From a bacterium HR28 (lineage in GTDB: Bacteria > Chloroflexota > Chloroflexia > Thermomicrobiales > Thermomicrobiaceae), in contig BEIE01000001.1 of the NCBI GenBank assembly GCA_002898255.1, forward strand, positions 682,001 through 746,000: 64,000 nucleotides of DNA, given 5' to 3'. Positions 3,798 to 60,983 of the stretch are shown here, one piece after another; position 1 is the stretch's first letter; each line of letters opens with the position of its first letter. The position numbers and the translations under genes were made by a program. The notes under the pieces were generated by a model that did not search any database, was not told the origin of the DNA, and was given only the letters and a program-made list of their open reading frames with translations.

Positions 3798-5537
3798 GTG
3801 CGTCGGCGTTCATCCGTTCTTTGGATCCTTCTTGTGCTCGTGCTCGTCTACGCCTGCCGTCGTGCCCCAGCGACGGAGGTCGCGACACCAGAGGTTTTTC
3901 CATCGACCCCTGCTGCTTCTGGGCCAGTTGTGACAGCAGCTCCGGAAATGCCTGGCAGCGCAGCACAAAGTCCTATTCCGCGCGCGGTGATACCGGCAAC
4001 ACCTGCGACCAGTGCCTCGGTAGAGCGCGGGATCGTCGAGGCGGGGTTTGAGGAGCCGCGCACACTCAATCCACTGTTCGTCGCTGATCCGCTCTCAGAT
4101 GCTCTCAGCCGCCTCGTCTTCGACGGTTTGGTTTCGCTCGATCCCACCAGCGGTGAGCCAGTGCCAGCACTTGCCACTTCCTGGGACGTCAGTGACGACG
4201 GGACGACCTACACGTTCCACCTCCGCGAGAATGTCCGCTGGCATGACGGGCAACCGTTCACAGCGAGCGACGTTGCATTTACCTATACACGACTCCTCGA
4301 TCCTGACGTCCGCTCGCCTCGCTATTCGCGGCTCGCCGAGCGCGTCAAATCGGTGGACATCATTGACAGCCAGACGGTGCGGATCACGCTGATTCGCCCT
4401 GATGCCTCTTTCTTGTCTACCCTTGCGACGATTGGGATTGTTCCCGAACATGTGCTCGGGACGGTGCTCCCGCAGCAGCTGGTGACCGACCCCTTTGGGC
4501 TCTCTTCAGCGGTCGGAACGGGACCATTTATCCTCACCCAATGGCTGCGCGGTGTTTCGCTCACCTTCCGTGCCAACCCGGACTATTACCGAGGTGCACC
4601 GACCATTCCTCAATATACCTACCGTGTTGTCAGTACACTGGACGAACTCGCGCGTGGGCTGCAGGACGGCACGATTGATTGGGCGACGCTTGACCCGGCT
4701 CAGGTAAGTCAGCTTCCGGCGCTCGACGGGGTCATAGTCGAGCGCTATCCGGGCTATGAGCTCGTGCTCGTCGCGCTGCAGCTTGATCCAGCCAAGAACA
4801 AGCTGTTCACCGATCTCCGTGTTCGCAAGGCGCTGCTCCTTGGAATCGACCGGGCGGCGATCGTCGAGAAAGTGTGGGGTGAGTGGGCGCGTGTTGCGGA
4901 GACCCTCCAGCCGCCAGCTTCCTGGGCTGCCGGTGAGCCGCCGGTGCGCTATCCGTACGATCCGGCGGAAGCACAGCGCTTGCTCGAGGAGGCCGGCTGG
5001 GTCTTGGGGGACGATGGCGTGCGTGTCCGCCAAGGGCAACGCCTGCAGTTCGGGCTCTTGGCGACGGGGAGCGATCCGAGCCGGCGTGCCGTCGCGGAGC
5101 TCCTGCAACAACAGTGGCGCGCGATCGGCGTCGATGTCCAGCTCGACTTGGCGTCCTGGGGCGAGGTACGCCGTCGGGCGACGCAGGAGCGGGACTTTGA
5201 CGCCCTGCTTATCGGTGTGCTCTGGGACGTCGATCCGGACCAGTCCTCGGTCTGGTCGAGTGACTCCTTTTTCGACGGACTCAACTTCGGTCACTACCTC
5301 AGCCCGGACGTCGATCGTCTCTTGGTCGAGGCGGTGGGGACGACCGACCGGGCACGGCGCATTGAGCTCTACCGGGCGATCGAGCAGCAGGTCCTCAGCG
5401 ACCTCCCGGTGCTCCCGATCGCCTTCCCTGACGTGATTGTGGTGCGGTCCGAACGGCTTCAGGTACCAGCGATGAATGCGCTCGTCGTGCGGACTCGAGC
5501 TGGGGTTGAGCAGTGGCAAGTGCGGGCGGACAGGTAG
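3798..5537 (+). CDS. ABC transporter solute-binding lipoprotein, family 5 (peptide/nickel type)
   Basis: Extracytoplasmic substrate receptor of an oligopeptide-type importer, 579 aa. It starts with a charged N-region and hydrophobic core ending in the lipobox LVYAC (Cys20), then a Pro/Ala/Thr-rich linker to about residue 70. The body shows SBP_bac_5 features: FEEPRTLNPLFVADPLSD, YTFHLRENVRWHDGQPFTA and the C-terminal LPVLPIAFPD segment. The GTG at 3798 follows GGAGCGAGGA. It is followed about 300 bases later by the matching DppD/DppF ATPases. The substrate could be peptides, nickel chelates or sugars and cannot be named. Confidence 0.92.
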   Translation: MRRRSSVLWILLVLVLVYACRRAPATEVATPEVFPSTPAASGPVVTAAPEMPGSAAQSPIPRAVIPATPATSASVERGIVEAGFEEPRTLNPLFVADPLSDALSRLVFDGLVSLDPTSGEPVPALATSWDVSDDGTTYTFHLRENVRWHDGQPFTASDVAFTYTRLLDPDVRSPRYSRLAERVKSVDIIDSQTVRITLIRPDASFLSTLATIGIVPEHVLGTVLPQQLVTDPFGLSSAVGTGPFILTQWLRGVSLTFRANPDYYRGAPTIPQYTYRVVSTLDELARGLQDGTIDWATLDPAQVSQLPALDGVIVERYPGYELVLVALQLDPAKNKLFTDLRVRKALLLGIDRAAIVEKVWGEWARVAETLQPPASWAAGEPPVRYPYDPAEAQRLLEEAGWVLGDDGVRVRQGQRLQFGLLATGSDPSRRAVAELLQQQWRAIGVDVQLDLASWGEVRRRATQERDFDALLIGVLWDVDPDQSSVWSSDSFFDGLNFGHYLSPDVDRLLVEAVGTTDRARRIELYRAIEQQVLSDLPVLPIAFPDVIVVRSERLQVPAMNALVVRTRAGVEQWQVRADR

Positions 5538-5836
5538 TGACTCAGGAAGACCGCGGCTCCGTGCTCGGGGACGACCCCATCTGGATCGTCGCATGTCCGA
5601 TGCCACCAGGGGGACGTCGCGGCGGCCAGAGGATCATTTGGACGACACTGAGGTGGCCGGTGAACGAGGGTGGAACGCTTTGATCAATCGAGAATCGAGC
5701 CATACGATGATTGAGATCCTCGTCGCAAGGGGCCGGTTGACGGTGTAGAGCGGAACCGCTAGACTGAGCGCGTAGCCGCGGAGAGCGGGATTCCAGCATG
5801 TGGTGACCAACGGGCGAAGGGGACGAAGGAGGCGCG
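5538..5836 (+). other. intergenic region before the ATPase genes; promoter only
   Basis: No convincing gene is seen in either strand in these 299 bases. The only readable signal is the promoter at 5737-5765. The gap and promoter suggest the ATPases can be expressed separately from the binding protein. Confidence 0.5.
5737..5765 (+). promoter_or_regulatory. strong housekeeping promoter for the opp ATPase pair
   Basis: TTGACG (5737-5742), a 17-base spacer and TAGACT (5760-5765) lie about 70 bases before the first ATPase start. This is one of the best sigma-70-like promoters in the window. Confidence 0.75.
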
Positions 5837-53902: not shown

Positions 53903-53932
53903 TTGCGCTCACCATACCCGATGTGCTAGAGT
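53903..53932 (+). promoter_or_regulatory. promoter of the lysW leader/operon
   Basis: TTGCGC (53903-53908), 18-base spacer and TAGAGT (53927-53932) with an extended TGC before it. The predicted start near 53939 lies only about five bases before the first paired base of the leader helix. Confidence 0.55.
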
Positions 53933-53943
53933 CTACCTGCAAG

Positions 53944-54109
53944 TCCCGTTGCGGCAGGAGGCCGGGGACGGACGATGGTACGGGGTACAGAGACAATGAA
54001 CCGGACGGCAGAGAAACCTGGGGCAGTGAGCGCCAGGGGCTATGCCGTTCTGGCTACCCCCGCACCTATCCCCGCCCCCAGGTTCCTGGGGGCTCCTGCC
54101 GCAACCGGA
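53944..54109 (+). ncRNA. structured leader RNA (riboswitch-like or independent small RNA) upstream of lysW
   Basis: Bases 53948-53960 pair perfectly (13 bp) with 54093-54105. After a C-C mismatch, 53944-53946 pair with 54107-54109. Inside, GGCCGGGGA (53960-53968) can pair with TCCCCGCC (54069-54076). 54003-54010 pairs with 54043-54050 and encloses CCTGG/CCAGG (54017-54021/54033-54037). 54074-54082 pairs with 54085-54093. CCTGGGG at 54017 can instead pair with CCCCAGG at 54076, so two exclusive folds exist. Promoter before, terminator after, then lysW. No match to riboswitch or RNA families I know (lysine, cobalamin, T-box, SRP, RNase P, tmRNA). Confidence 0.55.
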
Positions 54110-54159
54110 AGCGCCCGCGGACGGTCCTGTTGACCTGACGCGCTAGCGTAGAGCCGGAG

Positions 54160-54197
54160 CGGCGGTGAGCCCACAAGCTCACCGCCGATTCGTTTTG
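54160..54197 (+). terminator. intrinsic terminator/attenuator before lysW
   Basis: CGGCGGTGAGC and GCTCACCGCCG make an 11-bp perfect stem with a 6-base loop, followed by ATTCGTTTTG. Only 37 bases separate it from lysW and no promoter was found in between. Transcription of the operon must therefore pass it, as in attenuation. Confidence 0.75.
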
Positions 54198-54233
54198 TCG
54201 GAACGTTGTATGGAGTGGAGGGAGTGACCCACG

Positions 54234-54389
54234 ATGTGCCCAGAGTGTGGTGCCAATCTCGGTCTGACGGACGTCGAGGTGGGGGAAATTGTCTCCTGCC
54301 CGGAGTGCGGAGCCGATCTCGAAGTCCTCTCGGTCGATCCACTCGAGCTCGGCCTTGCACCGGCTGAGGAAGAGGACTGGGGCGAGTGA
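54234..54389 (+). CDS. lysW: amino-group carrier protein LysW
   Basis: 51 aa, a gene easy to miss because of its size. It reads [11 protein letters not shown] at the start, [11 protein letters not shown] in the middle and ends EEDWGE. Two CPECG knuckles bind zinc. The C-terminal EDWGE is the diagnostic tail whose last Glu is joined through its side chain to the amino group of alpha-aminoadipate or glutamate. The protected intermediate is then carried through the later steps. GGAGGGAGTGACCCACG precedes the ATG. It is the first gene of the operon, directly after the attenuator. Confidence 0.95.
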
Positions 54390-54391
54390 CG

Positions 54392-55222
54392 ATGGCCACG
54401 CTCGCGCTGCTCGCCGAGCGACTGCGGGTTGAGGAGCGCCTGCTCCAGCAGGCGTTTGCGGCCGCGGGCTGGGAGGCCCGATTGTACGATCCCAATGAAA
54501 TCGCCATTCCCTTGCAGGACGGTAAGGTCGAGTTGCCGGCCGTCGCGCTCGACCGGGAGCAGGCGACCCCGGAGTCGGCTGCGCTTGCTGCGCTGCTGGC
54601 AGCGCGTGGCGCGGTAGTCGTAAACCGCCCGGCGACGACGCGGCTGCTGGCGGATCGATTGGCGTTCCTCCGGCATCTTGTCGTAGCTGGTATCCCAACG
54701 CCACCAACGATCGTTGCCTTCGGTGAGGCGGCGACCTTCCGCGCGATCGCGTCACTGGGATATCCGGTGTACCTGAAATCGCTGACTGTGGACCCGATGA
54801 TGCCGATCGCATTTGTCGAGGATCCGGATGCTGCTGAGGCACTGGTCGAGCACCGCCGGGTGCTCGGCGAGGAGCGAGCAGTGCTGGTCCAGCAGGCGGT
54901 CGCTGAGCCGGGTGCAGTACGGCGGATGGTGGTCGTCGGGACGGAGCTCCTCGCGGTTCTGCGAGGACGGGGCGGCGACATGCCGATAACGCTCGAGGAG
55001 CGGGAACGCTGGGAGCCGCTGGCGAGTGCGCTTGTTGGACGACTCGGCAGCGGCGTTTACGTTCTTGACGTCGTGGAACGGGACGGTCAGCCGATCGTCC
55101 TCTCTGCCGAAAATCTTTTGCAGTTCCGCGAGCTGGCCGAGCAAGGAGTGCCGATCGCGGAGCGGATTGTCGCGTTCGTGATGGAACAGGTTCAGCAAGC
55201 AACTCCAGGGACGAGGGAATGA
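54392..55222 (+). CDS. divergent LysX-like ATP-grasp paralog, possibly inactive
   Basis: 276 aa, co-linear with the canonical LysX at 56315: [20 protein letters not shown] aligns with its start, [14 protein letters not shown] and LGYPVYLK with [14 protein letters not shown] and LGYPAVIK. The LysX motif GSWGR is replaced by TVDPMMP. The substrate loop HWVTNVARG is missing. The metal motif EVNGGVEF is SAENLLQF. A lysine of the ATP site and an Arg at RRMVVVG remain. It may be a pseudoenzyme partner of LysW or LysX, or a ligase with changed substrate. It starts 2 bases after lysW. ATG 54392 chosen over GTG 54386. Confidence 0.75.
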
Positions 55223-55223
55223 G

Positions 55224-56318
55224 ATGACGACCGAGCTCGCCGTCGAAGCTGCTGCCTTCCTCGAAGCGTTCCTCCGTATCCCGAGTCTTTCGGGCCAAGA
55301 AGCGGCGGCCGTCGAGTGGTTATGCGCTCGCATGACGGAGCTCGGCTACCAGGCAGCACCGGATGAAGCGGGGAACGCGGTCGGGGTCCGTGGATCTGGT
55401 TCACGTGAGCTGATGTTGCTTGGGCACATCGATACCGTGCCGGGTCGGATTCCGGTGCGGCAGGTGGACGGGTTGCTCTATGGCCGCGGCGCAGTCGATG
55501 CCAAGGGACCGCTTGCGGCGTTTGTGCTGGCCGGTGCCCGAGCGACGCTTCCTCCGGGTATCCGCCTTACTGTGGTTGGGGCGGTGGAGGAAGAAGTGAT
55601 GAGTTCGCGTGGTGCGAATTGGCTCGTCGAGCATCACCCGCGTCCGGATGCGGTGATCATCGGTGAACCGAGCGGCTGGGACGGCGTTGTGCTCGGTTAC
55701 AAGGGGTCAGTAGCGATTGAGTATCGGATCGTTCGACCGTCAGCGCATGCTGCCGGACCAGGCACGACAGCAGCGGAAGACGCGGTTGCCTTTTGGAATG
55801 CCCTCGTCAGCTGGTGTGACGAGCAGAATGCTGGACGGACGCGTGCCTTCGATTGCGTCACACCGACCCTGCTCAGCATTGTCACCAATGGAGACGGACT
55901 GACCGAACAGGCCTGGTTGCGGGCCAACCTACGCTTGCCGCCGGACTTCCCGCCAGAACGGGCGGTCGCAGTGGCGCAGCGGCTCGCCGGTGCCGGGGAG
56001 GTCGTAGTGACAGTCAACGCGGCAGGATTCCGGGTCGACAAGCGGTCGCCATTGGTCTCGGCGTTTCTCTCAGCGATCCGAGAGCTCGGCGGTGAGCCGA
56101 AACTCAAAGTAAAAACGGGAACGTCAGACATGAATATCGTCGGTCCGGCTTGGGGCTGTCCGATCGTCGCTTACGGTCCGGGCGACTCCCGGCTGGACCA
56201 CACGCCGAACGAGCACATCGCGATCGACGAGTTCTTGCGCGGTATCGCCGTGCTCCAGCGGGCGATTGAGCGGATCGCGGCACAAATCGTGGGTGGGCGA
56301 TGGGGGGACGAGTCGTGA
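55224..56318 (+). CDS. lysK: LysW-gamma-lysine/ornithine hydrolase (M20 family)
   Basis: Zinc peptidase, 364 aa, releasing lysine or ornithine from LysW in the last step. M20 ligands are visible: [10 protein letters not shown] (His, Asp), [10 protein letters not shown] (bridging Asp), [13 protein letters not shown] (catalytic and metal Glu), [17 protein letters not shown] and [11 protein letters not shown] (last His). SGTSDMN-like [11 protein letters not shown] is typical for LysK rather than for DapE/ArgE. It lies between two LysX paralogs, starting one base after the first and overlapping the second by 4 bases. Confidence 0.93.
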
Positions 56319-57199
56319 GTACGCCGCGGATCGGGGTGCTACTCTCGCATGTCCGAGAAGAGGAGAAACTCCTCCTGCGTGCACTGGCTGAGCGAGGCGC
56401 AGAGGTCGTGCGGCTTTATGACCGCCAGCTCGTGTTTGATCTTACGGACCAACACAGCTGGCCGCAGGTCGATCTTGTCCTTGACCGGTGCATGGCGCAC
56501 AGCCGGGGGCAGGTAGCCCTGCGCCTCTTCGAGTCTGCCGGAATCCCCACGGTCAACCGGAGCCAGGCGACTGCCATCGCCGATGATAAGGTGCTGACGA
56601 CGCGGCTCCTGGCAGCAGCTGGTGTGCCCACGCTCCGCACGCTCGTCGCCTTCGATGTGGAGAGCGCTCTTGCGGCCCTAGAGCAGCTGGGATATCCAGC
56701 GGTAATTAAGCCGGTGACTGGCTCTTGGGGACGACTGCTCGCCCGTGTCAATTCTCCGGCCGCAGCGCGTGAGGTGTTGCAGCACAAGCGGGCGCTCGGC
56801 TCCTTCCACCATGGTGTCTTCTATCTCCAGGAATATGTTGATAAGCCAGGGCGCGACGTGCGTGTCTTCGTCGTCGGCAACCAGGTGGTTGCGGCATCAT
56901 ACCGTGTTGCCGAGCACTGGGTGACGAATGTAGCACGCGGAGCAGTCTCTCATCCCTGTCCAGTGACACCGCAGCTGGCCGAACTCGCGTTGCGGGCAGT
57001 ACACACGATCGGGTTGGAGATCGCGGGTGTCGATCTCGTCGAGACGGCGGATGGGCTCGAAGTCCTGGAAGTCAACGGCGGTGTTGAGTTTAAGGGATTG
57101 ATGCGCACGACCCATGTCGACGTGGCGGGACTCATCGCCGATTACGTGCTGGCGCGGGCGACGCAGGGAGCGTCGCCCGCGATGGCGTTGAGCCACTGA
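56315..57199 (+). CDS. lysX: LysW-glutamate/aminoadipate ligase (RimK-like ATP-grasp)
   Basis: 294 aa. It forms the isopeptide bond between the LysW C-terminal Glu and the amino group of alpha-aminoadipate (LysX) or glutamate (ArgX). All motifs are present: [38 protein letters not shown], the substrate loop [12 protein letters not shown] and the metal motif [14 protein letters not shown]. The GTG at 56315 overlaps the lysK stop (GTGA). Sequence alone does not tell lysine from arginine use, and dual use is known in some archaea. Confidence 0.93.
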
Positions 57200-57233
57200 C
57201 GGAAATACCACGGGAGGGAGAGGTGGTACCTGG

Positions 57234-58292
57234 ATGGCAGTGACAGTCGCGATCCTCGGAGGCTCGGGCTACACGGGTGGGGAACTCTTGCGCTTGTTGC
57301 TTCATCATCCGGAAGTCGAGGTAAAGCAAGTCACCTCGCGGTCGCGAGCCGGAAAATTCGTGCATACGGTGCACCCGAACCTCCGCAAGCGCACAACCTT
57401 GAAATTCGTCCCACCCGAGGCGCTCGAGCCGGTCGACGTGCTCTTCGCCTGCTTGCCACATGGGGAGACGGCTCCGATTGTGGACCGGCTGCTCGAACTT
57501 GCGCCGGTTGTTATCGACCTTTCTGCAGATTTTCGCTTGCGAGATCCGGCTGCTTATGAGACGTGGTACCACTGGTCGCATCCTCGGCCGGAGCTGCTTG
57601 GCCAGGCTGTCTATGGGCTTCCGGAGCTCCACCGGGAGGAGATTAAGACGGCGCGGTACATCGCCTCCCCAGGCTGCAACTCAACGGCAGTGATCCTTGG
57701 GCTCGCCCCGCTCTTCCGTGCGGGATTAGTCGACCTGGACATGCCAGTGACCGTTGAGTGTAAGGTAGGCTCCTCCGGGGCTGGTGGTGAGGCCGGGCCA
57801 GCAAGCCACCACCCAGAGCGGAGTGGAGTGATCCGTCCCTTCAAGCCGGGCGGCCACCGGCACACAGCCGAGGTGCTGCAAGAACTCACGGTCTGTGGAC
57901 GGACGCCGTCGCTTGGCCTCTCGGTCACGAGCGTCGAAGCGGTGCGGGGGATCTTGGCGACGGCCCATGTCTTTCCCAATCGACCACTCACCGACCGTGA
58001 TCTCTGGCAGGTCTATCGCGCAGCCTACGGGCAGGAACCATTCATCCGTCTGGTCAAGGAGGCAAGCGGAATCCACCGGTATCCGGAACCGAAGATCCTC
58101 GCTGGCTCGAACTACTGTGATATCGGCTGGGAGTTGGACGAACTCCCGGGTGGCCGGCAGCGGCTCGTGGTGATGTCGGCAATTGACAACCTAATGAAGG
58201 GTGCAGCAGGACAAGCGGTGCAGGCGATGAACATCCGGCTTGGCTTTCCGGAGACATTGGGCCTTGAGTTTCCGGGGCTGCACCCGTTGTGA
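57234..58292 (+). CDS. argC: LysW-glutamyl/aminoadipyl phosphate reductase (LysY/ArgC)
   Basis: NADPH-dependent semialdehyde-forming reductase, 352 aa. The Rossmann start VAILGGSGYTGGELLRLLL, the catalytic Cys in IASPGCNSTAVILGLAPL near residue 149 and the histidine region FKPGGHRHTAEVLQEL are present. The C-terminus VMSAIDNLMKGAAGQAVQAMNI is typical of ArgC. In a LysW operon it acts on the carrier-bound phosphate. GGGAGGGAGAGGTGG stands about 15 bases before the ATG. Confidence 0.94.
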   Translation: MAVTVAILGGSGYTGGELLRLLLHHPEVEVKQVTSRSRAGKFVHTVHPNLRKRTTLKFVPPEALEPVDVLFACLPHGETAPIVDRLLELAPVVIDLSADFRLRDPAAYETWYHWSHPRPELLGQAVYGLPELHREEIKTARYIASPGCNSTAVILGLAPLFRAGLVDLDMPVTVECKVGSSGAGGEAGPASHHPERSGVIRPFKPGGHRHTAEVLQELTVCGRTPSLGLSVTSVEAVRGILATAHVFPNRPLTDRDLWQVYRAAYGQEPFIRLVKEASGIHRYPEPKILAGSNYCDIGWELDELPGGRQRLVVMSAIDNLMKGAAGQAVQAMNIRLGFPETLGLEFPGLHPL

Positions 58293-58303
58293 GGAGTCGC
58301 GTG

Positions 58304-58957
58304 GTGCGACGTCGCTGGGTCATTTTCCCTTTGCTCGCGGTAGGTCTCGCGCTCGGCTGGAAGCTTGCTCGCCGACGGCCCTTTTCAGCGCGGCTCGCCT
58401 GGTTCTTGACACTGCCGGGGGTGCGCTCGTTCGCCCAGGCAGCGGAACTCACTGCCTTGCTGGAGTTGCAGCCGGGCATGCGGGTACTCGACGCTGGCGC
58501 GGGGCCGGGGCGACTGACAATCCCATTGGCCGAGTGTGTCGGGCCAAGCGGTTCAATCACCGCGCTCGACGTGCAGCCGCGTATGCTCGAACTGGTGCAG
58601 CAGCAGGCGGAAAAGCGCGGACTGACCAACGTACGGCTGCTGCTGGCGGAGCTCGGCCGGGGCACGTTGGCAGCGCTGGAGCAGAATGCTTACGACCGGG
58701 CGCTCCTTGTCCACGTGCTTGGCGAAACAGCCGACCCGGCGGCGACATTGCAAGAGTTGGCGACGGTGCTGCGACCAGGTGGGCGCCTGGCGATCGTCGA
58801 GACGGTGGGGGACCCGCACTACGTGCGGTATCGGCGGGTGCGCGAACTGGCTGAGCGGGCGGGTCTCCGACTCATCGCGGAGCGGCGCTGGCTCTTGGGA
58901 CATACCACAATCTGGGAAAAGCCGAGTGGGATGACGATGGAGAAAGGAGCGACGTGA
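58304..58957 (+). CDS. membrane-anchored SAM-dependent methyltransferase
   Basis: 217 aa. After VRRRW comes a short hydrophobic segment (VIFPLLAVGLALGWKLA), then a class I methyltransferase fold: motif I VLDAGAGPGRLTIPLA near residue 69, motif II ITALDVQPRM, motif IV YDRALLVHVLGE and motif post-I TVLRPGGRLAIVE. GTG 58304 lies 7 bases after GAGGAG. It is coupled to lysZ (GTGA overlap), in the middle of the LysW operon, where no methylation step is known. The substrate is unknown. Related enzymes include UbiE-like and SAM-MTases of lipids. Confidence 0.82.
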   Translation: MRRRWVIFPLLAVGLALGWKLARRRPFSARLAWFLTLPGVRSFAQAAELTALLELQPGMRVLDAGAGPGRLTIPLAECVGPSGSITALDVQPRMLELVQQQAEKRGLTNVRLLLAELGRGTLAALEQNAYDRALLVHVLGETADPAATLQELATVLRPGGRLAIVETVGDPHYVRYRRVRELAERAGLRLIAERRWLLGHTTIWEKPSGMTMEKGAT

Positions 58958-59799
58958 CGAAGATGTTGGTCGTGAAGCTGGGAGGGAGCGCGGGAATCGA
59001 TCCGGCACTGACGCTGGACGATCTGGCAGCGCTCTGGCGTGAGACACGGATCGTCTTCATCCACGGGGCGAACGCGACACTTGACGAGTGGACGCGACGG
59101 CTTGGACGGGAGCCACGCCTCGTGATGTCCTCGACTGGTCAGGTCAGCCGGTTTACCGACCGCGAGACGATGGATCTGATGTTGATGGTCTATGCCGGTC
59201 TGGTCAATAAGCGGCTCGTCGAGGGACTGCAGCAGCGTGGCGTCAACGCCGTTGGGCTGACAGCGATGGACGGGCGCATCGCCAGCGGTCCACGCAAAGA
59301 CACGCTGCGGGCGATCGAAAATGGGAAACCCAAGGTGCTGCGGGGAGACTATGCGGGAAGTATCGAACGGGTCGATACGCAGCTCTTGGAGCTCCTGCTC
59401 GACCATGGGTATCTGCCTGTGCTCACGCCCCCGGCGGTGAGCGACCAGGGCGAGGCGATCAACGTGGACGGAGACAAGCTGGCAATGCAGCTTGCGGTCG
59501 CGCTGCGGGCTGATGCGCTGGTCATCCTCTCGAATACACCTGGCCTCCTACGGGACGTGCGTGATCCGGACTCGCTGATTACCGCCATTGATGTGGACGA
59601 TCCGGCGAGTGTCGAGGCGGCGATGACGGCGGCACAGGGTCGAATGAAGAAGAAGGTGGAGGCAGGCTGCAAGGCGGTGCAGGCAGGGATCGGCCGAGTG
59701 GTGTTCGCTGATGCACGTGTGCCACAGCCCATCCAGCGGGCACTTGCCGGCGCGGGGACAGTGCTGATCGCCGGGAGCCGGGTCGAGGTGCGACCATGA
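58954..59799 (+). CDS. lysZ: LysW-glutamate/aminoadipate kinase (LysZ/ArgB)
   Basis: Amino-acid kinase-family enzyme, 281 aa, phosphorylating the carrier-bound glutamate or aminoadipate. Marks are MLVVKLGGSAGID, the IVFIHGANATLDEW glycine loop, DGDKLAMQLAVALRADALVILS and the lysine in QGRMKKKVEAGCKAV. SSTGQVSRFTDRETMDLM agrees with LysZ more than with classical ArgB. GTG 58954 overlaps the methyltransferase stop, and its own stop overlaps lysJ. Confidence 0.93.
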   Translation: MTKMLVVKLGGSAGIDPALTLDDLAALWRETRIVFIHGANATLDEWTRRLGREPRLVMSSTGQVSRFTDRETMDLMLMVYAGLVNKRLVEGLQQRGVNAVGLTAMDGRIASGPRKDTLRAIENGKPKVLRGDYAGSIERVDTQLLELLLDHGYLPVLTPPAVSDQGEAINVDGDKLAMQLAVALRADALVILSNTPGLLRDVRDPDSLITAIDVDDPASVEAAMTAAQGRMKKKVEAGCKAVQAGIGRVVFADARVPQPIQRALAGAGTVLIAGSRVEVRP

Positions 59800-60983
59800 C
59801 GGCGCGATCGACGGCGACGATCGTCCAACTCGACGAGACGCTACAGCCGCCGCTGTATGCCAAGCGCGGTATCGCGTTAGTGCGCGGCGAAGGGGTGTGG
59901 CTCTATGATAGTGACGGGCAGCGGTATCTCGACCTGATGAGCAACTACGGGGTCAATATCCTGGGGCACGCCCATCCTCGTGTCACCGCTGCGATCGTCG
60001 CGCAGGCGGGAAGACTTTTGAGCTGTCACCAGTCGTTCGCCTCGGACGTGCGGGCGGCATTCCTGGAAAAGCTGTTGTCTATCGCTCCTCATGGATTGGT
60101 GCGCGCGTTCTTGAGTAACTCCGGCGCGGAGGCGGTGGAGGCAGCGCTGAAGTTTGCCTGGGCGGTGACCGGGCGGCGCAAGATCGTGGCGGCACGGCGC
60201 GGCTACCACGGTCGGACGCTCGGAGCGCTGGCGGCGACAGGGGAGCCGAAATATCGCCAACCGTTCCTCGCTGTGTTGCCGGAAGTGACGCATGTCCCCT
60301 ACGGCGATGCCGTGGCGCTGGAGGCGGCCGTCGACCAGGAGACGGCGGCGGTGATCCTCGAGCCGGTGCAAGGCGAGGCAGGAATTTATCCAGCTGATCC
60401 GGGTTTCCTAGAGGCGGCGCGGCGGATCACGCGAGATCGTGGTGCACTCCTTATTTTCGATGAGGTGCAGACAGCGTTCCGCACCGGTGCCTGGTTTGCC
60501 TGCCAACACGCAGGGGTTTCACCGGACCTCCTCTGTGTGGCCAAAGGGTTGGCCAATGGAGTCCCGATTGGCGCGACACTCCTGACGGAAGATGTGGCGC
60601 TGGCGTTGCCGGCTGGTGTCCATGGGAGCACCTTCGGCGGGAACCCGCTTGCCTGTGCGGCTGGACTGGCAACGCTTCAGGCGCTCGAAGATGACCGCCT
60701 GATCCCCGCTGCCAAGGAGCTTGGTGCTTATTTCCGTCAGCAGCTACTCGCCTTGCGTCACCCACTCGTGCGCGAGGTGCGCGGACTCGGACTGATGCTC
60801 GGTGTTGATCTGAAGACGCGTGCGACGCCCGTTCTCAAGGCAATGCAAGAGCGCGGAGTGCTGGCGCTCCCTGCCGGCACGACGGTGGTGCGGCTCCTGC
60901 CGCCCTTGATCCTGACCCGCGAAGACATCGATTTCGCTGTGGTACGGATCGGCGAGGCGCTGGAGGCGCTGCGCGCCGGCTAA
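59796..60983 (+). CDS. lysJ: LysW-lysine/ornithine aminotransferase (LysJ/ArgD)
   Basis: Class III PLP transaminase, 395 aa, converting the carrier-bound semialdehyde with glutamate as donor. Visible are NSGAEAVEAALKFAW, VILEPVQGEAGIYPAD, the PLP Asp in LIFDEVQTAFRTG, and the PLP lysine in LLCVAKGLANGVPIGA near residue 252. GSTFGGNPLACAAGLATL follows. ATG 59796 overlaps the lysZ stop. It completes the LysW route of ligase, kinase, reductase, transaminase and hydrolase in one operon. Confidence 0.94.
   Translation: MTARSTATIVQLDETLQPPLYAKRGIALVRGEGVWLYDSDGQRYLDLMSNYGVNILGHAHPRVTAAIVAQAGRLLSCHQSFASDVRAAFLEKLLSIAPHGLVRAFLSNSGAEAVEAALKFAWAVTGRRKIVAARRGYHGRTLGALAATGEPKYRQPFLAVLPEVTHVPYGDAVALEAAVDQETAAVILEPVQGEAGIYPADPGFLEAARRITRDRGALLIFDEVQTAFRTGAWFACQHAGVSPDLLCVAKGLANGVPIGATLLTEDVALALPAGVHGSTFGGNPLACAAGLATLQALEDDRLIPAAKELGAYFRQQLLALRHPLVREVRGLGLMLGVDLKTRATPVLKAMQERGVLALPAGTTVVRLLPPLILTREDIDFAVVRIGEALEALRAG

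Follow-up and report, generated by a model that had tools for sequence, protein, structure and literature searches.

Bacterial arginine operons are mostly known to be under the control of repressors, ArgR for example, or of T-boxes in some groups. Metabolites can also be sensed during translation of an upstream peptide: the fungal arginine attenuator peptide (AAP), SpeFL and TnaC are nascent-chain arrest sensors, of which the AAP belongs to eukaryotic translation control and works by arginine-induced arrest at a stop codon. For the LysW-dependent pathways, leader-peptide attenuation was reportedly described by Tsubouchi et al. 2005 for the lysine cluster of Thermus thermophilus, the first gene of which is said to encode homocitrate synthase. 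In Salmonella, the speF leader contains orf34, encoding SpeFL, which carries the Arg codons AGG-CGG, and its rate of translation alters RNA folding between low and high arginine (PMC6386406). A single AGG codon caused the strongest stalling among sense codons in the Salmonella his leader (PMC4046918). The uORFC-8-2 cysS motif is a comparatively found leader ORF with conserved codons that was read as ribosome-mediated attenuation (PMC8632094). Among the open papers that we found on arginine leader-peptide attenuation or on the Chloroflexi LysW operon, none described the leader element of lysW reported here.

In the window, that is, the whole 64,000-nt stretch analysed, the gene for the amino-group carrier protein LysW lies on the forward strand at 54234-54389 (TIGR01206, 76 bits; cut-off 53.2). 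It is followed on the same strand, at 54392-60983, by the rest of the LysW operon, in which an NCBIfam scan identified a LysX-like protein, a LysK-like hydrolase, LysX, ArgC/LysY, a methyltransferase, LysZ and LysJ/ArgD. Two LysX-like ligases are thus encoded in one operon, the one at 54392-55222 scoring far below the LysX cut-off (79.5 vs. 275.6 bits) and the one at 56300-57199 above it, and the methyltransferase gene (58289-58957), the product of which is of unclear type, is located between argC/lysY and lysZ. Among 21 family genomes, ArgJ was found in none (0/21), LysA of the diaminopimelate route in 17, and homocitrate synthase over the cut-off in G009 only (G009:C3:38754-39803). In related families, lysW is immediately preceded by the end of argF (ornithine carbamoyltransferase) or of argH (argininosuccinate lyase), as read by eye from the translation of the upstream sequence. 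The absence of ArgJ, the presence of LysA and the argF or argH neighbours together indicate that the operon serves arginine synthesis, so that arginine is the expected signal; judged by gene content, the LysW operon appears to be the only recognisable arginine route here.

The region in front of lysW was compared in 16 genomes, which are all those of the Thermomicrobiaceae-family set with a readable lysW locus. In the window, it begins with a promoter on the forward strand, read from the sequence at 53903-53932 (TTGCGC at 53903-53908 and the extended -10 element TGCTAGAGT at 53924-53932). In 16/16 genomes, the extended -10 promoter TGNTANNNT precedes the AGG codon described below by 139-149 nt, and it scores below the thresholds of a sigma-70 scan; the transcript would start at about 53939. 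Downstream, a perfect 13-bp helix can form between 53948-53960 and 54093-54105, and an intrinsic terminator occupies 54160-54198 of the same strand, with an 11-bp stem (54160-54187) and the T-rich tail ATTCGTTTTG; a terminator hairpin followed by a T-rich stretch is present in all 16 genomes. Folding of the leader is better than that of shuffled sequences (z = -3.57, with 0/100 shuffles as good). An earlier note on this DNA had located the promoter, the 13-bp helix, the CCTGGGG motifs at 54017 and 54085, CCCCAGG at 54076, the terminator and lysW, all of which we find at these positions; the leader ORF, its Shine-Dalgarno sequence and the antiterminator did not figure in that account. Its statement that the RNA fits no known family also holds: covariance models gave no Rfam match at the gathering score (including the lysine riboswitch, cobalamin, T-box, SRP, RNase P, tmRNA and 6S families), and at E ≤ 10 there was none on the leader strand, only two chance miRNA matches on the other strand.

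Because a promoter and a strong terminator bracket a structured unit of ~250 nt, the same note had considered an independent small RNA that ends at the terminator, with lysW transcribed from elsewhere. This we regard as extremely unlikely. The element is always directly upstream of lysW, which is the next gene in 16/16 genomes, and the sigma-70 scan finds no promoter-like site between the terminator and lysW; moreover, the 5' arm of the terminator is also the partner strand of an antiterminator, a pairing in which covariation is seen (see below).

Between the promoter and the terminator, we identified a leader peptide ORF (53975-54133, forward strand) of 52 aa, MVRGTETMNRTAEKPGAVSARGYAVLATPAPIPAPRFLGAPAATGSARGRSC, with the core PAPIPAPRxLGAPAA and an alternative in-frame ATG at 53996. 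The ORF is uninterrupted and identically placed in 16/16 genomes from five genera, and its translation is predicted from a coding signature. Its Shine-Dalgarno sequence is AGGAGG (53956-53961), at a distance from the ATG that is long in the window (13 nt), a point that speaks against an attenuator. The leader peptides comprise 47-53 aa and share, with slight variation, the motif PAxxPAPRxxx(A/T)PA(A/C/V), with the stop codon 16-18 codons past the Arg; across the 16 sequences, eight residues do not vary, the start Met among them. With changes counted by parsimony on the LysX tree, the core codons -7 to 0 and +4 to +6 have 2, 4 and 15 at the first, second and third codon positions, respectively (binomial P = 0.0004), and the N-terminal part of the ORF has 58, 64 and 64. 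The excess of third-position changes in the core, against the flat counts in the N-terminal part, indicates that the core is selected as peptide and that the N-terminal part is not. The inner-domain RNA fold falls in this N-terminal part, and beyond the nearest genera the rest of the fold is not kept. On this comparative evidence, the leader appears to be both coding and RNA, in different parts.

A profile of the leader peptide matched the family genomes drawn with E values of 1e-24 to 1e-15. In a profile search of 158 genomes of the class and 400 of the phylum, strong matches occurred in the family only, all before lysW, and we read the remaining weak, scattered matches as probable chance. 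No Pfam or NCBIfam family was found for the peptide, with one weak match only in NCBIfam. We also considered a frameshift at CCY-AGG as a slippery site and rejected it, given that the +1 and -1 frames are conserved neither in length nor in sequence and do not join lysW consistently.

The regulatory codon would be the AGG at 54080-54082 (forward strand), which encodes leader residue 36. This Arg codon is AGG in 16/16 genomes, unchanged even though the neighbouring Pro and Ala codons drift synonymously, and it is rare, making up 3.7% of the Arg codons in the 64-kb window, which served as the only background of codon usage, and 1 of the 155 in the operon. It is the one conserved Arg codon of the leader; the others vary, and there is accordingly no run of regulatory codons. 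Inspection of part of the 47 tRNA loci yielded one tRNA-Arg(CCT), whose match scores lowest among the tRNAs of the genome. The locus of this tRNA (L135 1500-1752; G000:C5 near 5320-5569) divergently adjoins tRNA-Pro(CGG).

The proline codons of the core (54059-54097), up to five of them CCY, are CCC or CCT in 75/75 cases, vs. 31% CCY among the proline codons of the window, where CCG dominates. Such a bias would suit a translation-coupled control without arginine sensing, in which the leader reports general translation or the EF-P/proline status of the cell, and we consider this reading improbable, given that the operon is arginine-specific, that the codon at the switch point is the Arg codon AGG and that P-A-P is not a di-proline stall.

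The AGG codon stands at a fixed distance from the strands of a putative switch. The sequence CTCC(T/C)GC starts exactly 13 nt past the A of AGG in 16/16 genomes. Its complements are the leader Shine-Dalgarno region (pairing 1:2) and the terminator's 5' arm (pairing 2:3). In the window, this sequence is the core CTCCTGC, from 54093, of region 2 (54089-54102, forward strand, GGGGCTCCTGCCGC), which combines an anti-Shine-Dalgarno sequence with the 5' strand of the antiterminator. Region 3 (54159-54169, forward strand) is the 11-mer GCGGCGGTGAG, identical in 16/16 genomes, and forms the 3' strand of the antiterminator as well as the 5' arm of the terminator; the antiterminator and the intrinsic terminator are mutually exclusive, as region 3 is common to both. 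In all 16 genomes, regions 2 and 3 can form 10-16 pairs with one bulged U. Six of the pairs show changes on both sides, and one of them occurs as G-C, G-U, A-U and U-A. We counted 15 further pair types in this alignment vs. 11.1 in shuffles (reached in 5/500), and all slid registers gave lower values; relative to shuffles, the covariation is modest (5 to 37 of 500, according to the measure used). The bases that flank the 11-mer tend to co-vary with region 2 between genera. The 11-nt invariance of region 3, including the bulged U, exceeds what an attenuator model needs. The T of GCGGCGGTGAG is bulged in the antiterminator, and also in the terminators of one genus, and yet the 11-mer shows no change in any of the 16 genomes; it may bind another partner as well.

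Region 1 (53948-53960, forward strand), the 5' arm of the 13-bp helix, overlaps the leader Shine-Dalgarno sequence and pairs with region 2. The conservation of this helix is uneven: the 1:2 pairing comprises 13 bp in three genomes and, if wobbles are included, in a fourth. The other g3 members reach 10-11 bp, whereas lengths of 6-8 bp are seen in g2, in g4 and in most of g5, one g5 genome having 5 bp. Two genomes of the same genus, G001 and G002, lack the helix at its usual place. Upstream of lysW in these two genomes (L063 and L065), the 5' half of the leader is unrelated and the core and terminator are the same, as if the front had been replaced.

These differences between the parts of the leader bear on the first suggestion of the earlier note, namely a new riboswitch-type attenuator sensing arginine, lysine or a pathway product. 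An aptamer formed by the domain at 53941-54125, binding arginine, lysine or an intermediate directly, would agree with the presence of a terminator with alternative helices and with the conserved fold of the inner domain, in which both partners have changed at 11 of 56 pairs among eight close relatives (0/500 shuffles as high). Covariation, by which the note had proposed to test its fold, is thus significant for the inner domain, whereas the 13-bp helix shows one-sided changes only (G-U) in the close relatives. The sequences of the mutually exclusive CCTGGGG/CCCCAGG helices are present as proposed, whereas the alternative that uses the CCTGGGG copy at 54017 lacks conservation. In genomes beyond the close relatives, an unrelated 5' half is combined with the same ORF core, AGG codon, region 2 and terminator; the 13-bp helix is missing from its place in the two genomes mentioned, conservation tracks codons, and no Rfam family matches. 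We found no conserved aptamer core independent of coding, the invariant bases being those of codons and of the terminator arm. An aptamer riboswitch is therefore very improbable: of the earlier suggestion, attenuation and arginine are retained, and the riboswitch-type aptamer is rejected because the invariant parts are ORF codons, the rare Arg codon and the antiterminator strands, and the other fold is not kept. An apparent riboswitch candidate can prove to be a coding leader.

To relate the position of a ribosome to the switch, we took its leading edge as P-site +16 and folded the free RNA downstream of it before the 3' arm of the terminator exists. The 2:3 core pairs with a probability of 0.99 when AGG is in the A site; the value falls to 0.27-0.56 one codon further on and to ≤0.13 two codons further on, in 16/16 genomes. 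Varying the footprint from +13 to +18 shifts the switch point by about one codon. In these simulations, the codon of the end product is thus placed where a stalled ribosome frees the antiterminator strand. Equilibrium folding of the full transcript favours the terminator in most genomes, also when a ribosome stands at AGG, which implies that antitermination must be kinetic and decided during transcription, as in classical attenuators. In the ribosome-free fold before the terminator is complete, the 2:3 pairing is not reliably suppressed (0.00-1.00), and the protective role of the 1:2 helix is consequently weak outside, and even within, the close relatives.

We consider it probable that the element is a ribosome-mediated transcription attenuator through which expression of the LysW-dependent arginine operon would follow how much charged Arg-tRNA is available, the operon downstream being one that makes the amino acid presumed to be sensed. 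The ORF, the codon, its spacing, the alternative pairings and the identity of the operon were obtained by comparison; the direction of the response, the signal (Arg-tRNA) and the role of the nascent chain are what we infer. Transcription would begin at about 53939, and a ribosome would load at the Shine-Dalgarno sequence (53956-53961) and trail RNA polymerase. When the tRNA-Arg for AGG is scarce or uncharged, the ribosome would pause with peptidyl-proline in its P site and the AGG codon (54080) in its A site, the leading edge just short of region 2, so that the emerging region 3 could pair with region 2; no terminator would then form, and lysW and the genes behind it would be transcribed. When Arg-tRNA is ample, the ribosome would move beyond AGG and cover region 2, region 3 would join the terminator, and transcription would stop before lysW. 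If the leader is not translated, the 1:2 helix would withhold region 2, favour the terminator and hide the leader start site, which is the weakest step of the scheme. The ribosome is probably slowed by the conserved PAxxPAP that precedes the Arg, with peptidyl-proline as the donor, so that one codon may be enough. Arginine would then be made only when the cell runs short of it.

The conservation of the peptide itself raises the question of whether the chain rather than the codon is the sensor. The amino acids before the Arg are kept while third positions drift (most changes in codons -7 to -1 are synonymous), that is, the nascent chain is conserved independently of its codons, which codon starvation alone does not need; the eight invariant residues point the same way. 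The PAxxPAPR chain might then itself arrest the ribosome on free arginine (or ornithine) and not on uncharged tRNA, with arrest at or before AGG turning the operon on, or arrest at the following APA codons covering region 2 and turning it off. This is unlikely, however, as a pure peptide sensor has no need of an Arg codon that is invariant as AGG, the downstream APA is accounted for by the region 2 RNA, and the peptide lacks similarity in Pfam apart from the single weak match in NCBIfam noted above. A combined reading, also unlikely, is that PAxxPAP-Arg(AGG) acts as a bacterial arginine-sensing nascent peptide that holds or frees the ribosome in response to arginine itself; a single leader would then unite rare-codon sensing with peptide arrest and switch the intrinsic terminator.

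From sequence comparison, the lysW leader is best explained as an attenuator of arginine biosynthesis, conserved across the family and with an unusual single-codon design, and not as a riboswitch. Like the trp-, his-, leu- and ilv-type attenuators, it has an ORF with a codon for the product at the switch point, mutually exclusive antiterminator and terminator structures, a promoter just upstream and a biosynthetic operon downstream. Whereas trp/his-type leaders have codon runs (a run of at least two regulatory codons is usual, though not strictly defining, for attenuators), the leader described here has a single AGG, which counts against a classical attenuator; it further differs from the trp/his type in that the nascent motif PAxxPAPR is conserved, that region 2 doubles as the anti-Shine-Dalgarno sequence of the leader, that the amino acid is arginine and that the pathway is of the LysW type. 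With the fungal AAP it shares an upstream peptide of arginine metabolism with conserved residues, but the AAP arrests at the stop codon, whereas here the stop follows AGG at a distance of 16-18 codons and the proposed switch includes an intrinsic terminator. The attenuator of the Thermus lysine cluster, as it is said to have been described, likewise belongs to a LysW-pathway cluster of a thermophile, but precedes lysine genes and not arginine genes. The nearest arginine case that we found is orf34/SpeFL of speF, similar in that an Arg-codon leader ORF changes RNA folding; that leader, however, controls ornithine decarboxylase through Rho, RNase G/RNA decay and RBS exposure, vs. a biosynthesis operon and an intrinsic terminator here (PMC6386406), and the SpeFL core HIRRT..HIMM (DUF2618) is unlike PAxxPAPR. 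The cysS motif, with its tandem Cys codons before a cysteinyl-tRNA synthetase gene of alphaproteobacteria, is unlike this single-AGG leader (PMC8632094). An attenuator that senses arginine through a leader peptide, and that precedes the genes of the LysW carrier-protein route, would add a new point of control to this pathway, and the lysW leader would offer a natural test of whether one rare codon and a proline-rich nascent chain can replace the codon run.
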